Shown here one piece after another: positions 486-21,921 of a stretch of 42,581 nt of DNA. The notes beneath the pieces were generated by a model that worked only from the letters and a program-made list of their open reading frames with translations, was not told the origin of the DNA and made no database searches. A program made the translations under genes and the position numbers. Source of the DNA: Fidelibacterota bacterium (GTDB taxonomy: Bacteria; Fidelibacterota; UBA8477); the NCBI GenBank assembly GCA_021734065.1, contig JAIPJQ010000007.1:1-42581 (forward strand), read 5' to 3'. Positions within the stretch are counted from its first letter, which is position 1, and each line of letters begins with the position of its first letter.

Positions 486-679
486 GAATCACTTTTTACA
501 ATTCCCGCCAGGTTGCGTTTCAATTTTTCCGAGTTTACCAATTTCAATGATGCCGCAGGGATTTACCCATGGAGCACCATTAAACATCCCGGCGTAGTTT
601 TTGATATAAATTTGGATGACTAAACCGTCCGTTCGTGGGATGGATGGTGCTAAAACGCTACTCAAACAGGATTTTCCGG

Positions 680-2728
680 ATGCGATTAACAATTCTGACA
701 CTCGTTATTTTTTCAGCTACACTCTCAGCACAATGGTTCTCAAAACCAAAGCCGGTGGTTCTAAACCTCATGCCGATTCCCCAACACATTGAACTGAAAT
801 CAGGGGCATTTCGTGTGACCGATGATTTTTCGTTGGGTGTTACGGGCCGGACTCACAACCGGATTTACGGTGGTGCCGATCGCTTTCTGCAACGCTTGTC
901 CGGCCGAACCGGACTCTTTTTCACCCAGGGTTTTCTCAATGAGAAGACCACACCCACAGAGGGGAAACTGATTATCCGTGTGCAGCGCCCGGGTGAGGTG
1001 AAATTGGGTGAAGATGAGTCCTATGAACTCACCATTTCCCGCAAGGGCATTGTTCTGGAGGCTCATACCGACCTGGGGGCGCTCCATGGTTTGGAAACGC
1101 TGCTGCAACTCCTGAGCGTGGATGGGGAAGGGTATTATTTCCCGGCAATTCAGATTAACGATCATCCCCAATATCCCTGGCGCGGGCTGCTCATTGATGT
1201 GTGTCGGCATTGGCACCCCATGGACGTTATCAAGCGCAATCTGGATGGTATGGCGGCGGTGAAATTGAATGTGCTTCATTTTCACCTGTCGGAGGATCAG
1301 GGGTTTCGGGTGGAAAGTAAGATTTTTCCGGAACTGACGGAAAAGGGATCAGACGGCAATTATTTCACACAGACGCAGATCCGTGAGATTATCCAATATG
1401 CTGATGACCGGGGTATTCGCGTGGTCCCCGAATTTGATATGCCCGGGCACACCACGGCACTGCTAACAGCACGCCCCGACCTGGCCAGCGCGCCGGGACC
1501 GTATGATATCGAGCGCAAATTTGGTGTTTTTGACCCCACGATTGATCCCACCCAGGAAAGTACTTATGCATTCATGGAAAAATTCTGGGGTGAGATGGCC
1601 GCGCTTTTTCCCGACGAATACATGCACATTGGCGGTGATGAGAATAATGGGAAGCAGTGGGACGCCAATCCGCGCATTCAGGCATTCAAGGACAGCATGG
1701 ACTTGGCGGACAATCATGCCCTGCAGCGCTATTTCAATACCCGGGTGCTGGAAATCCTCACGAAAAACGGCAAGAAGATGATGGGGTGGGACGAGATTTT
1801 TCAGCCGGATTTGCCCAAAAATATTGTGATTCAGTCCTGGCGCGGACGCAAGGCGTTGATTGACGCGGCCAGACAGGGCTATCAGGGCATTCTGTCCAAT
1901 GGTTATTACATTGATTTGTGCTATCCAACCAGTGACCATTACCTGAATTTTCCCATCGCGCCGGATGCGGATTTAACACCCGATGAACGCGCCCGGATCC
2001 TGGGCGGTGAGGCCACCATGTGGGCCGAATTGGTGACACCGGAGACCATTGACAGCCGGATCTGGCCCCGTACTGCGGCGATTGCCGAACGATTCTGGTC
2101 AGCGCCTGAGGTAAATGATGTGGATGATATGTACCGGCGGTTGGAGCGGGTGAGTGTTCAACTGGAAGAGTTGGGTCTGACCCATGAAAAAAACTATCCC
2201 ATGATGCTGCGTCGTCTGACGAATCACCAGGACATCACAGCATTACAGACCCTGGTGGATGTGCTGGAACCGGTGAAAGGCTATACCCGGCATCGTTATG
2301 CAACATACACATCACATTCGCCGCTAACTCATGTGGTGGACGCCGCCCGCCCGGATGCTGTTGTGGCGCGGGAATTTCGTAATTTGGTGGATGCGTATTT
2401 AGAAAATCCGGTGGAAGGCGTTACCCAAACCGCCATTATCCAACGACTGATTCGTTGGGAATCCAATCATGCCCGGCTAAAAACGACCATTGCCGGTTCA
2501 CCCGTCCTGAAAGAAGTGGAATCATTATCAGCCGACCTGAGTCATGCCAGTACGGTTGGGCGGGACGCGCTGGCTTATCTTGCATTATGTGAGGCGCCGG
2601 ATTCGTCTTGGACGGAGGTAAGCCATCAAGTTTTGGAAGCTGCAAAGCAACCACACGCCGCAGTCGAAATTATAGTGGTTAGCGCAATTGAAAAACTGGT
2701 GAATGCGGCAGAAAGAGTTAAGTCTTGA
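680..2728 (+). CDS. Beta-N-acetylhexosaminidase (glycoside hydrolase family 20), secreted
   Basis: GH20 enzymes remove terminal beta-linked GlcNAc/GalNAc from chitin fragments and glycans by substrate-assisted catalysis. The protein has a signal peptide (MRLTILTLVIF...SAQ), an N-terminal alpha/beta domain, and a TIM barrel beginning near YPWRGLLIDVCRH. Barrel motifs include LHFHLSEDQGFRVES and HIGGDEN, where the Asp-Glu pair (residues 320-321 from this start) is the expected catalytic pair. About 200 residues follow the barrel, longer than minimal GH20 enzymes. I chose the ATG at 680 because AGGA lies about 9 bases upstream and it opens directly into the signal peptide. A GTG at 635 and an ATG at 644 are in frame and would give up to 697 residues. 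Probably periplasmic or surface-bound. The family call is secure; the exact substrate is not. Confidence 0.9.
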   Translation: MRLTILTLVIFSATLSAQWFSKPKPVVLNLMPIPQHIELKSGAFRVTDDFSLGVTGRTHNRIYGGADRFLQRLSGRTGLFFTQGFLNEKTTPTEGKLIIRVQRPGEVKLGEDESYELTISRKGIVLEAHTDLGALHGLETLLQLLSVDGEGYYFPAIQINDHPQYPWRGLLIDVCRHWHPMDVIKRNLDGMAAVKLNVLHFHLSEDQGFRVESKIFPELTEKGSDGNYFTQTQIREIIQYADDRGIRVVPEFDMPGHTTALLTARPDLASAPGPYDIERKFGVFDPTIDPTQESTYAFMEKFWGEMAALFPDEYMHIGGDENNGKQWDANPRIQAFKDSMDLADNHALQRYFNTRVLEILTKNGKKMMGWDEIFQPDLPKNIVIQSWRGRKALIDAARQGYQGILSNGYYIDLCYPTSDHYLNFPIAPDADLTPDERARILGGEATMWAELVTPETIDSRIWPRTAAIAERFWSAPEVNDVDDMYRRLERVSVQLEELGLTHEKNYPMMLRRLTNHQDITALQTLVDVLEPVKGYTRHRYATYTSHSPLTHVVDAARPDAVVAREFRNLVDAYLENPVEGVTQTAIIQRLIRWESNHARLKTTIAGSPVLKEVESLSADLSHASTVGRDALAYLALCEAPDSSWTEVSHQVLEAAKQPHAAVEIIVVSAIEKLVNAAERVKS

Positions 2729-2778
2729 AATTTTCCTGTGTGTATCGCTGAGCCTGTCGAAGTGCACACAGGAAAATT
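2729..2778 (+). terminator. Hairpin with 14-bp perfect stem between convergent genes
   Basis: The arms are 2729-2742 and 2765-2778 (AATTTTCCTGTGTG and its exact complement), with a 22-base loop containing CTGAGCCTGTCGAAG. It begins immediately after the hexosaminidase stop codon. The arm ends in AAAATT, so it can act as a terminator. The loop motif suggests it is also a copy of a dispersed hairpin element. Confidence 0.65.
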
Positions 2779-2804
2779 ATCGTTGATTAAAAAAAATAGA
2801 ATTA

Positions 2805-2842
2805 GCAGGTTGTCCTTCGACGAGATCAGGAAGACAACCTGC
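2805..2842 (-). terminator. Hairpin with 10-bp perfect stem, terminator for the ABC-F gene
   Basis: The arms are 2805-2814 and 2833-2842 (GCAGGTTGTC and complement). On the minus strand it lies just past the ABC-F stop codon and is followed within about ten bases by a run of eight T, which fits an intrinsic terminator. Its loop, CTTCGACGAGATCAGG, is an inverted and slightly diverged version of the loop motif in the neighbouring hairpin at 2729-2778. Confidence 0.6.
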
Positions 2843-2854
2843 AATATGTCAAAA

Positions 2855-4771
2855 TTACTCAGCCAATTTAGCCGTAAGCTCCTCCTGCTCAACCAGCAGG
2901 TTGATCAACTCATCTTCCAGGCGTAATTGTTCTTTGGAGGCCTCCTGAATGGCTTTGAAGTCACTCTGCGTGTCCGGATGATTCAAAATAGCTTGCTGGG
3001 CGACGATTTTCTGCTCTATCGCTTCAATCAATCCTGGTAACTTCTGCAACCGGTTCGTAAGCCGCCGTCGGTCTTTGTGGGAAAGTTCACCGATAACGGT
3101 CCTGGGTTTTGGCGAATCCGAATCGTGAGAAATGTCCTGTGAAGGTGTTGTATCTGTCTCACCGGAGGATTCCTGCTCCTGTGATTTTTTCCAGGTGTAA
3201 TAGTCATAATTTCCGGAAAACGCGCGAATGTCGCCATCCTTCACTTCCCAAATCGTATCCACCACCGCATCCAGCAGATGTCGGTCGTGGGAAATACAGA
3301 TCAGTGTGCCCTGATAATCTTTTAACGCCTGTTCCACCACGTCCCGGCTCTGGATGTCCAGGTGGTTGGTGGGTTCGTCCAGAAGTAACAGATGGGTGGG
3401 ACGCACCAATATCCGCGCCAATGCCAGCCGGGCTTTTTCACCACCGGATAGAACGCTCACCTTTTTCTCCACCGCGTCGCCGGAAAAGAGAAACGCGCCC
3501 AATAACCCGCGGATGGGGGAAATTTCCCAATCCGGTACTTCGTGTTGAATCGTTTCAAATACGGTTTTGCGCGCATCCAAAACTTCCAACTGATGCTGGC
3601 TGTAATAGGCCGGTGTCACATCCGGTCCGTAGATTAACTGGCCGCTGGTGAGTTTTTCCACACCGGCCGTCAGCTTGAGCAGGGTGGATTTTCCAGCGCC
3701 ATTGGGTCCCACCAACCCGATTTTCTGACCCCGTTCAATCTCCACCGTCAAATCGTCGTACACCTGCACATCCCGGTACGCCTTGCTGGCGTGTTTAAAT
3801 GAGGCAACCATACGCGGACCCCGGCCGGGTTGGGGCAGGCGAAGACGCAACGTGGCACGACCGGTTGCCGGCGGCGGGATTCTCTCCATCTTTTCCAGCA
3901 TTTTAATGCGGCTCTGGACCTGCTTGGCTTTGGTGTTTTTATACCGAAAGCGCTCGATGAAAACAGTGGTTTCCGCAATTTTCTTCTGCTGGCTCTCATA
4001 GGCCGCCTGTTGCTGTTCCAGGCGCAACGCCTTTTCCTGCATATAGGCGGAGTAATTCCCGGTGAACAGATGTCCCTGTCCCCGTTCCAGTTCCAGAATG
4101 TGGGTCACAGAACGGTCCAGAAATGCCCGGTCGTGGCTGATGATGACCAGCCCGCCGGCCCAGTCATTCAGAAACGCTTCCAGCCAGATGGTGGCGTCCA
4201 GATCCAGGTGATTGGTGGGCTCGTCCAGCAGCAGAATGTCGGGTGCTTTCAGGAGCAGTTTTGCCAGGGCTACCCGCATGCGCCAGCCACCACTGAAACT
4301 TTCCAGCGGGCGCTTGAATTGGTCCGGCAGGAATCCCAGACCTCCCAATATCTCTTTTGCGCGACTTTCCAATGACCAGCCATCCAGCCGATCGTATTCC
4401 TGCTGCAGCTGACCCAACTCCTTCAAATATTTTGCATGATGGGGATCGTGGGACAGATGGTTGGTGATGGCTTCGATCTGTTGTTCAATTTTTCCCACGG
4501 CCGGCAGGGCTTGCATCACCTCAGTGAGAATGGACTGATCTGTTCCGGGTACGATTTCCTGGGGCAGATAGCCAATCCGTGTGTTCCGACCCTTGATAAT
4601 CTGTCCGTCGTCCGGTGTTTCTTCTCCCATGATGAGACGCAACAGGGTGGTTTTTCCGGCGCCATTGGGACCCACCAGTCCAATTCGCATGGAGGATGTT
4701 ATGAGCATGGACAAATCGGCAAACAGGACTTTGTCCGGAAATTCTTTGGTGATATGGTCGAGTTGGATCAT
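2855..4771 (-). CDS. ABC-F family ATP-binding protein (Uup/YheS-like)
   Basis: ABC-F proteins are soluble twin ATPases that act on the ribosome (translation factors, some giving antibiotic resistance) rather than as transporters. Two complete nucleotide-binding domains are visible: Walker A GPNGAGKT at residues 34-41 with the signature FSGGWRMR and LLLDEPTNHLD, then a second GPNGAGKS, LSGGEKARLALAR and LLLDEPTNHLD. Between them lies a charged linker (KNTKAKQVQSRIKMLEK), the usual P-site tRNA interaction motif region. No transmembrane segment is present. The last ~110 residues are charged and coiled-coil-like, as in Uup or YheS. I start at the ATG giving MIQLDHITKEF, the conserved ABC-F beginning; a TTG 45 bases upstream is open but adds non-conserved residues. 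At 638 residues it is full length. The subfamily is undecided. Confidence 0.9.
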   Translation of the reverse strand: MIQLDHITKEFPDKVLFADLSMLITSSMRIGLVGPNGAGKTTLLRLIMGEETPDDGQIIKGRNTRIGYLPQEIVPGTDQSILTEVMQALPAVGKIEQQIEAITNHLSHDPHHAKYLKELGQLQQEYDRLDGWSLESRAKEILGGLGFLPDQFKRPLESFSGGWRMRVALAKLLLKAPDILLLDEPTNHLDLDATIWLEAFLNDWAGGLVIISHDRAFLDRSVTHILELERGQGHLFTGNYSAYMQEKALRLEQQQAAYESQQKKIAETTVFIERFRYKNTKAKQVQSRIKMLEKMERIPPPATGRATLRLRLPQPGRGPRMVASFKHASKAYRDVQVYDDLTVEIERGQKIGLVGPNGAGKSTLLKLTAGVEKLTSGQLIYGPDVTPAYYSQHQLEVLDARKTVFETIQHEVPDWEISPIRGLLGAFLFSGDAVEKKVSVLSGGEKARLALARILVRPTHLLLLDEPTNHLDIQSRDVVEQALKDYQGTLICISHDRHLLDAVVDTIWEVKDGDIRAFSGNYDYYTWKKSQEQESSGETDTTPSQDISHDSDSPKPRTVIGELSHKDRRRLTNRLQKLPGLIEAIEQKIVAQQAILNHPDTQSDFKAIQEASKEQLRLEDELINLLVEQEELTAKLAE

Positions 4772-4896
4772 CTGCTGGTATTGCTGCTTTCCGGCGCAAA
4801 AGCTAATCCCCACCAAGATTGGCGCAACAGGAAAGCGGATAGTACAACCGGGTAAATGAATTTTCGGAACATTATTCGGACGCTATATTTTGCCCT

Positions 4897-21589: not shown

Positions 21590-21921
21590 ATGGAGTGTGA
21601 TTTTTGCCACGGATAAACACAGAGTAACACAGATGAACACAGAGAAATATGTTTATAGCCGCGGATTAAGTGGATGGTGCGGGTAGAAAATGGAATCACA
21701 GAGACTACACAAAGGCGTACTGAGAAAATTAAATAACCACCCCGGTTGTTTCCCTGAGTAGCTCGTAGAGCGTATCGAAGGGCAACCGGGTTTGAATCAG
21801 TGGGAAGAAAACCACAAAATACATGAATGAACACGGATAAAATGGAACCGAAGACTGATAGTGACAGGTGAATTTGAAGGGCGACATACAACAAAAATGC
21901 AGAAAACACACAAGGTGAGAT
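21590..21921. repeat. Repeat-filled gap between ssnA and ygeY
   Basis: This 332-base stretch has no credible gene. At 21606-21646 there is a string built of ten-base units (GGATAAACAC, AGAGTAACAC, AGATGAACAC, AGAGAAATAT), with looser copies further on (around 21691-21715 and 21822-21840). A hairpin element lies at 21741-21790. The last bases carry AAGGTGAG, the ribosome-binding site of ygeY. Minus-strand frames here read as low-complexity Leu/Cys/Ser/Val strings that I regard as spurious. Confidence 0.7.
21741..21790. repeat. Hairpin element with CCCTGAG...CGAAGGG core
   Basis: The outer arms CCCGGTTG (21741-21748) and CAACCGGG (21783-21790) are perfectly complementary. Inside are CCCTGAG and TCGAAGGG flanking a small GCTC...GAGC stem. 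The core shares CTGAG and TCGAAG with the hairpin loop at 2743-2764, which suggests one dispersed family with different stems. Confidence 0.6.

Follow-up and report, generated by a model that had tools for sequence, protein, structure and literature searches.

The two adjacent hairpins at positions 2729–2842 of the window (the whole stretch of DNA analysed, 42,581 bases, contig C95 of its own genome of 2.5 Mb and 82% completeness) probably form the ends of a short REPIN-like mobile element that carries no gene; its gene-bearing versions hold a GIY-YIG gene, and the encoded nuclease would spread its cores or dimers. Palindromes of this kind cluster at GIY-YIG genes, which suggests, on sequence comparison, that this nuclease rather than the usual REP transposase spreads them.

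Data sets and hairpin counts

Genomes are denoted G000 (own genome) and G001, G002 etc. (relatives), contigs Cnn and loci Lnnn. Hairpins were counted under a model of four Watson–Crick pairs, a 2-nt mismatch, one Watson–Crick pair and a tip of 3–40 nt, which gives 72 non-redundant mismatch combinations. Distances were taken from the GIY-YIG domain match rather than from the ORF, and P values ignore phylogeny. The first set comprised 69 GIY-YIG domains at 61 loci of the own genome and its relatives, with small ORFs taken roughly in list order together with those of G000 and G001. The second, largely separate, held the best 80 of 565 relatives retrieved with an 18-protein alignment, mostly Bacteroidota, and one of its loci (L294) duplicates a relative's locus. 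Stem statistics rest on 163 exact TGAGCNNGTCGAA copies among the matches listed, leaving aside those within 40 nt of a locus end or beside an N.

Anatomy and folding of the window hairpins

The pair is situated between a GH20 gene on the forward strand and an ABC-F-type gene on the reverse strand (Table 1), with hairpin 1 beginning at the very base after the GH20 stop codon, hairpin 2 standing 12 bases from the stop codon of the ABC-F-type gene, and a T-rich run following hairpin 2. As originally predicted, perfect stems of 14 and 10 bp enclose a common loop in inverted orientation, CTGAGCCTGTCGAAG in hairpin 1 and CTGATCTCGTCGAAG in hairpin 2 being identical at 12 of 15 positions, and together the hairpins form an inverted, tail-to-tail doublet. 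The interior of hairpin 1 between its outer arms reads TAT-CGC-TGAGCCTGTCGAA-GTG, and the outer stem of hairpin 2 spans 8–10 bp, an equivalent pairing being 8 bp, a TCT bulge and 3 bp. Folded as RNA, positions 2720–2850 reach −47 kcal/mol, against −24.7 (SD 3.3) in 200 shuffles (z −6.7, 0 of 200 as good). In Rfam, the stretch 2500–3100 had four chance-level matches and none at gathering level.

Table 1 Features of the window that bear on the hairpin family
Feature	Position	Strand	Details
Glycoside hydrolase family 20 (GH20) gene	635..2728	+	upstream flank of hairpin 1
Hairpin 1 ('A' end)	2729..2778	+	outer arms 2729-2742 / 2765-2778, 14 bp perfect
Hairpin 1, tag-like GTAT	2742-2745	+	GTCT in G001 orthologue
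Hairpin 1, inner 3-bp stem	CGC 2746-2748 / GTG 2762-2764	+	one G-T wobble
Hairpin 1, core TGAGCCTGTCGAA	2749..2761	+	TGAG 2749-2752, CGAA 2758-2761, apical loop CCTGT
Spacer between both hairpins, 26 bp	2779..2804	.	place of the GIY-YIG gene in gene-bearing copies (cf. L221)
Hairpin 2 ('B' end)	2805..2842	-	arms 2833-2842 / 2805-2814, 10 bp perfect
Hairpin 2, tag GTCT	2835-2832	-	inner stem TCC/GGA
Hairpin 2, core TGATCTCGTCGAA	2816..2828	-	degenerate, TGAT for TGAG
Two-domain ABC-F-type ATPase gene	2855..4816	-	flank beyond hairpin 2
Third family member	21741..21790	+	CCCGGTTG-TTT-CCC-TGAG-17 nt-CGAA-GGG-CAACCGGG

The loop appears best read as a continued stem, in which TGAG and CGAA would form a T–A pair, a tandem G·A mismatch and a G–C pair and leave an expandable tip, here of 5 or 6 nt. 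We favour this reading because the tip expands with TGAG and CGAA retained (to 26 nt in G001) and because the hairpin counts given below are specific to this mismatch; DNA and RNA folding programs did not predict tandem G·A pairs. A K-turn reading was dropped, as the 3-nt bulge sits 4 bp from the G·A pairs. The third family member, absent from the original prediction, has a long tip and a CCCGGTTG/CAACCGGG stem like those of the own-genome copies on C75 and C92, the three having the stem sequence CCGGTTG in common. A two-mismatch scan for the loop within the window was not significant (4 matches against 2.6 expected, with 27 of 100 shuffles reaching 4).

Copies across genomes

The genome-wide copies that the original prediction anticipated do exist: exact TGAGCNNGTCGAAG occurs seven times in the own genome and its reversed pattern 0 times, and CTGAGCNNGTCGAAG has 446 matches over 60 genomes (own included; present in 33 of the 60), against 4 for the reversed pattern. 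Because own-genome counts at two mismatches barely exceed the control (81 + 102 versus 71 + 87), only near-exact copies are informative.

Complementary flanks are the rule close to the core and less common farther out. The three pairs adjoining the core are standard in 140 of the 163 copies (shuffled partners give 49.8, maximum 63), and 13 different Watson–Crick triplet stems stand next to it, but outer helices of at least 6 bp are present in only 42 of 163 (control 4.8%; 15 of 31 in the own genus and 27 of 132 elsewhere), so that long outer arms are absent from some copies, and some stems are shared. Among 16 of the 31 own-genus copies, picked for a GTCT-like tag, outer-stem pairs 2 to 8 are Watson–Crick in 12–14 copies versus 4.6–7.3 after shuffling, pair 1 being uninformative.

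A partner lies within 150 bp of 86 of the 163 copies, compared with 56 of 603 random places, and is in the same orientation in 34 cases, head-to-head in 22 and tail-to-tail, the REPIN-type inverted doublet to which the window pair belongs, in 30. Since the other 77 copies are unpartnered and orientations are mixed, the dimer is one arrangement among several. The family core also occurs in a tandem form at L018 (G000:C66 7348–7407), where GGTGAGCCTGTCGAAC is repeated three times at 23-bp spacing.

Stems and cores at orthologous sites

Both window stems carry compensatory changes when G000 is compared with G001, and the G001 orthologue of hairpin 2 holds a long core (TGAG, 26 nt, CGAA) inside the orthologous stem. 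This 34-nt core recurs exactly in eight contexts with differing stems among the G001 loci examined, once in G002 and 0 times among the G000 loci examined. Stems are likewise retained around different cores at C10/C196 and at C92/C82/C85. The core is thus the constant and apparently replaceable part of the hairpin, as had been proposed, with stems differing between copies while, at orthologous sites, the core is swapped and the stem stays. The companion proposal, that stems arise by local duplication and inversion, fared poorly: stems at orthologous sites are passed on with compensatory changes, some copies share one stem sequence, and an empty site with a single arm was not found among the orthologues compared (the G002 pair site, G002:C59, and C10 and C79, both of which are too diverged or rearranged for this comparison).

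GIY-YIG loci themselves show presence/absence between close species. At the C2/C12 locus (L221 1760–2380 versus L225, G001:C12), three orthologous hairpins have their cores inverted within conserved stems, so the geometry there is not fixed. In G002 (G002:C59), 70 bp replaces 503 bp, and a single core is framed by arms that mismatch, the left one being that of the first hairpin in G001 and the right one that of the last hairpin in G000. This hybrid site is best read as a putative deletion by recombination between cores, a pre-insertion state being the less likely reading.

Association with small GIY-YIG nuclease genes

In the first set, 132 hairpins with the GA/GA mismatch lie within 400 bp of a GIY-YIG domain (50.7 kb, 40 of 61 loci; the other 21 loci have none this near), whereas the other 71 combinations average 16.8 (SD 5.8, maximum 34), alternative pairings of one hairpin being included in test and control counts alike; farther than 400 bp away there are 104 in 158 kb. 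The second set gave 315 near GA/GA hairpins in 77 of 80 loci, against a mean of 27.6 (SD 13.7, maximum 93) for the other combinations, and 304 against 26.7 ± 13.4 once its three Neomarinimicrobiota loci were removed. Its positive loci include Ignavibacteria, Nitrospinaceae, Cloacimonadota, Kapaibacterium, Planktothrix and Methylococcaceae, and the three loci with no near GA/GA hairpin are L331 (Omnitrophica), L347 and L364. Fifteen GH20 loci used as a control were unexceptional (6 GA/GA hairpins versus 3.9, SD 2.4). GTC stands at −8 to −6 in 51 of the 132 and 164 of the 315 hairpins. Before the loop was recast as a tandem G·A mismatch the association looked weak, with two exact TGAGC motifs, and four at up to one mismatch, at the top 20 GIY-YIG loci.

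Of the 30 genomes searched, 29 have PF01541 (GIY-YIG) matches, with housekeeping proteins counted in, and the maximum is 15 per genome. Their number, which takes in UvrC-type proteins, correlates with motif copy number (rho 0.69 over the 30 genomes, 0.54 within G000–G022). G004 has 21 motif copies and a single weak GIY-YIG match, and G010 has two copies and 0 GIY-YIG matches. The flanked proteins match PF01541 and the UPF0213/small GIY-YIG structures PDB 1zg2 (E 1.6e-20) and 1ywl (E 3.1e-15), which are annotated as hypothetical, and Y7, Y17-T18-G19, R27, H31 and E64 are invariant across 18 aligned GIY-YIG sequences. A search of the open-licence literature found neither a link between UPF0213 and palindromic repeats nor any report joining GIY-YIG with REP-type palindromes, and the core oligonucleotides had no match in open-licence paper text; subscription papers and preprints lie outside that scope, so a prior description is possible.

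The hairpins are also arranged with respect to the gene. The 132 near hairpins of the first set divide into 52 upstream in sense, 43 downstream in antisense, 22 downstream in sense and 15 upstream in antisense, and across the 80 loci of the second sense orientation holds for the nearest upstream hairpin in 55 of 70 cases and antisense for its downstream counterpart in 46 of 69, so that the nearest hairpins tend to point toward the GIY-YIG gene from either side. Both sides are occupied at 62 loci, 32 of which have the sense/antisense arrangement. Cores at the two ends are identical in 15 of these 62 loci, against 2.4% between loci (mean similarity 0.81 versus 0.58), and the 3-nt stems agree at 1.97 of 3 positions within loci versus 1.15 between, with 23 of 62 identical. 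Among the 32 sense/antisense pairs, 13 combine a like core (similarity at least 0.8) with a different stem in opposite orientation, and four combine a like core with the same stem. Core similarity also follows protein identity (Mantel r 0.25, 0 of 2000 permutations as high; 0.19 for pairs less than 70% identical).

In the own genome, the GIY-YIG gene on C2 has GTCTTGC-TGAGCCCCGTCGAA-GCAC in sense 37 bp upstream and GTCTCCC-TGAGCCCCGTCGAA-GGGC inverted 82 bp downstream, with two additional hairpins farther out. Ends of this kind also flank the 26-bp spacer of the window pair, and because the C2 gene carries window-type hairpins on both sides, the pair looks like a gene-less derivative.

At L074, L079, L081, L083 and L090, small GIY-YIG genes adjoin tRNA-like sequence followed by copies of that sequence, which suggests that tRNA-targeting GIY-YIG elements may exist as well.

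CGTC-tagged palindromes at GIY-YIG genes

The CGTC-tagged REPs defined by Di Nocera et al. 2013 (PMC3733652) have a CGTC or TGTC tag, an 8–9 bp stem whose first two positions are AT, a loop of 4–5 nt and mostly a CCA tail; no associated transposase is reported there, and a search of that paper's text does not return 'GIY'. We examined 26 GIY-YIG loci from PLSDB, chosen by us as 16 of 41 and 10 of 42 matched records, and at 15 of them a perfect palindrome of at least 7 bp with GTC immediately 5' lies within 300 bp of the GIY-YIG gene; the remaining 11 loci have no such palindrome. About 11 of the 15 are independent, because four Sphingobium loci lie beside the same fnrL gene and two Shinella loci are orthologous. 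GTC ranks first of the 64 possible tags, followed by TGG (13 loci), which we take to be the CCA tail of these elements, and GGG (7). Within 300 bp the tagged instances number 14 upstream in sense, 13 downstream in antisense, six downstream in sense and two upstream in antisense, and a further 21 lie beyond 300 bp. A Neisseria locus, from a record labelled plasmid yet 2.17 Mb long, has six copies in mixed orientation. GA/GA hairpins do not stand alone at these 26 loci: the count near the gene is 25 versus 9.1 ± 5.6, and another combination reaches 28.

In Azospirillum lipoferum 4B, a GIY-YIG gene with a dimer on each side occupies the 617 bp between sufB and sufC, a gap of 91 bp in A. ramasamyi, 87 bp in A. 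oryzae and 129 bp in strain B510, where the block is absent and its exact junction indeterminable.

The CGTC REPs and the window family both have a short palindrome, inverted dimers and many copies, and the GIY-YIG link is seen for both, in the window type at the C2 locus. A GTC tag 5' of the stem is common to them only in part, as hairpin 2 reads TGTC and then T, and hairpin 1 has GTAT, with GTCT in its G001 orthologue. The window copies differ in having GTCT or GTAT, a 3-bp inner and an 8–14 bp outer stem with a bulge, a 13-nt core, no CCA tail, locus-specific outer stems and the tandem G·A mismatch.

Alternative explanations

Co-location fits both a mobilising nuclease and a nuclease gene homing into pre-existing dimers. 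Under the second account, existing REP-like dimers spread by other means and the GIY-YIG gene, as a homing endonuclease gene, enters their spacer, which predicts the same convergent geometry; homing GIY-YIG enzymes are established (PMC1564403), and the genes beside duplicated tRNA sequence are placed as target-specific homing genes might be. We nevertheless hold it unlikely, given that it names no agent for dimer spread in a genome where Y1_Tnp was not found, that copy number tracks PF01541 counts, that end cores match more within than between loci, and that the A. lipoferum gene has a complete dimer on either side, the entire block being absent in relatives. A less active origin, in which an old repeat family persists as hairpins through template-switch repair and meets GIY-YIG genes at shared safe insertion sites, would suit the degenerate window copies (TGAT, GTAT). 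Replication slippage can invert cores inside hairpins, as in plastid genomes, which also counts for such debris. The specificity for GA/GA, the biased geometry and the matching of cores at the two ends would be unexpected from shared safe sites, and we judge this origin improbable.

The original prediction had allowed that the hairpins double as terminators. Read from gene 3' ends, each window hairpin follows a stop codon (by 0 and 12 nt) in sense, the T-rich run is in place, stems are preserved through compensatory change, and convergent gaps hold 25 copies versus 20.5 expected from intergenic length (divergent gaps 12 versus 20.2). Across the family, however, same-strand gaps have 41 copies in sense and 41 antisense, convergent gaps 13 in sense and 12 antisense relative to the nearer gene, and 30 of the 163 copies fall inside predicted ORFs (simple ORF calls). 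Orientation being balanced, termination is rejected as the general function, and protein-binding or intrinsic terminators with a conserved RNA loop, which would leave the GIY-YIG link unexplained, are a very improbable account of the family.

The RAYT-type transposase that the original prediction named did not materialise either. As described in PMC3116915 and PMC8266576, GTAG-tagged REPs and REPINs with their RAYT (TnpA_REP) resemble the window family in having tagged palindromes, inverted doublets, a stem mismatch and compensatory changes, and, like the GIY-YIG family, a gene beside its own repeats; in E. coli REPs the mismatch is an AA-GC bulge needed for activity. A Y1_Tnp gene is indeed found in 24 of the 30 genomes searched. 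In the own genome, however, two candidates were scored and 0 matched PF01797 (Y1_Tnp), a count that 82% completeness keeps from being final, and in relatives the 10 best Y1_Tnp loci, with flanks of up to 1.5 kb on each side, lack the motif at up to one mismatch. The tandem-G·A count at those loci (6 versus 3.1, SD 2.5) shows no clear excess, and motif copy number correlates weakly with Y1_Tnp (rho 0.28, 30 genomes). Nor do the window hairpins have the GTAG tetranucleotide at the palindrome foot: the family differs from RAYT REPs in its GTC(T/A) tag, in a mismatch that is a tandem G·A and in a partner that is a GIY-YIG rather than an HUH protein. The own-genome absence, the motif-free Y1_Tnp loci and the weak correlation lead us to reject RAYT as the spreading enzyme, and ordinary REP or REPIN elements moved by a RAYT (Y1 HUH) transposase are the most improbable of the readings considered.

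Proposed mechanism and significance

The reading we prefer is that of a mobile element with two hairpin ends, mobilised, as we infer, by the GIY-YIG nuclease. Its gene-bearing versions would have one small GIY-YIG gene (about 80–140 aa) between the hairpins, and a typical end would be a palindrome with a GTC(A/T) tag, a stem of 3 bp or longer, a tandem G·A (YGAR/YGAR) and a small expandable tip, to which a locus-specific outer stem would often be added in the own genus. The protein would act in cis and in trans, recognising the hairpin when it is extruded or single-stranded and cutting it near the tag or core, after which repair from another copy would either spread and replace cores, in a homing-like conversion, or insert whole dimers. 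Where hairpins come to lie in convergent gaps, an incidental effect on transcript 3' ends may follow.

It is an even question whether these elements make up a second, independent class of bacterial REPs that depend on a small GIY-YIG nuclease as their enzyme instead of an HUH protein (RAYT). Such a class would include the orphan CGTC REPs, perhaps with Neisseria dRS3-like repeats, and the tandem-G·A class of Bacteroidota, Neomarinimicrobiota and other phyla, and its moving unit would range down to a core that homes into palindromes and leaves locus-specific stems behind. The CGTC REPs, for which the defining 2013 paper names no enzyme (PMC3733652), would thereby gain a specific, testable partner. 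Many short repeats in Bacteroidota, alphaproteobacteria and candidate phyla would find an explanation in the same partner, and the numerous genes annotated 'GIY-YIG nuclease family protein' would gain a substrate. It would also be unusual for a nuclease to recognise folded DNA by a tandem G·A mismatch within a hairpin.

Other insertions at family sites

At the G002 orthologue of the window pair (L092, G002:C118), a 1.2-kb module stands instead of the hairpins and consists of a 104-aa ORF with no Pfam match and a nucleotidyltransferase (PF12281); as a guess, it resembles a toxin–antitoxin-type cassette. Some IS110 elements target REPs, and the family hairpins may likewise serve IS110 elements as targets. 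At L130 225–1504 (G002:C85), a family hairpin is interrupted directly after GTCT by a transposase gene of the IS110 family, which exceeds the cut-offs of PF02371 and PF01548 but scores 128.8 bits with NCBIfam NF033542, where the cut-off is 140; the hairpin at L285 (G000:C92) is uninterrupted.
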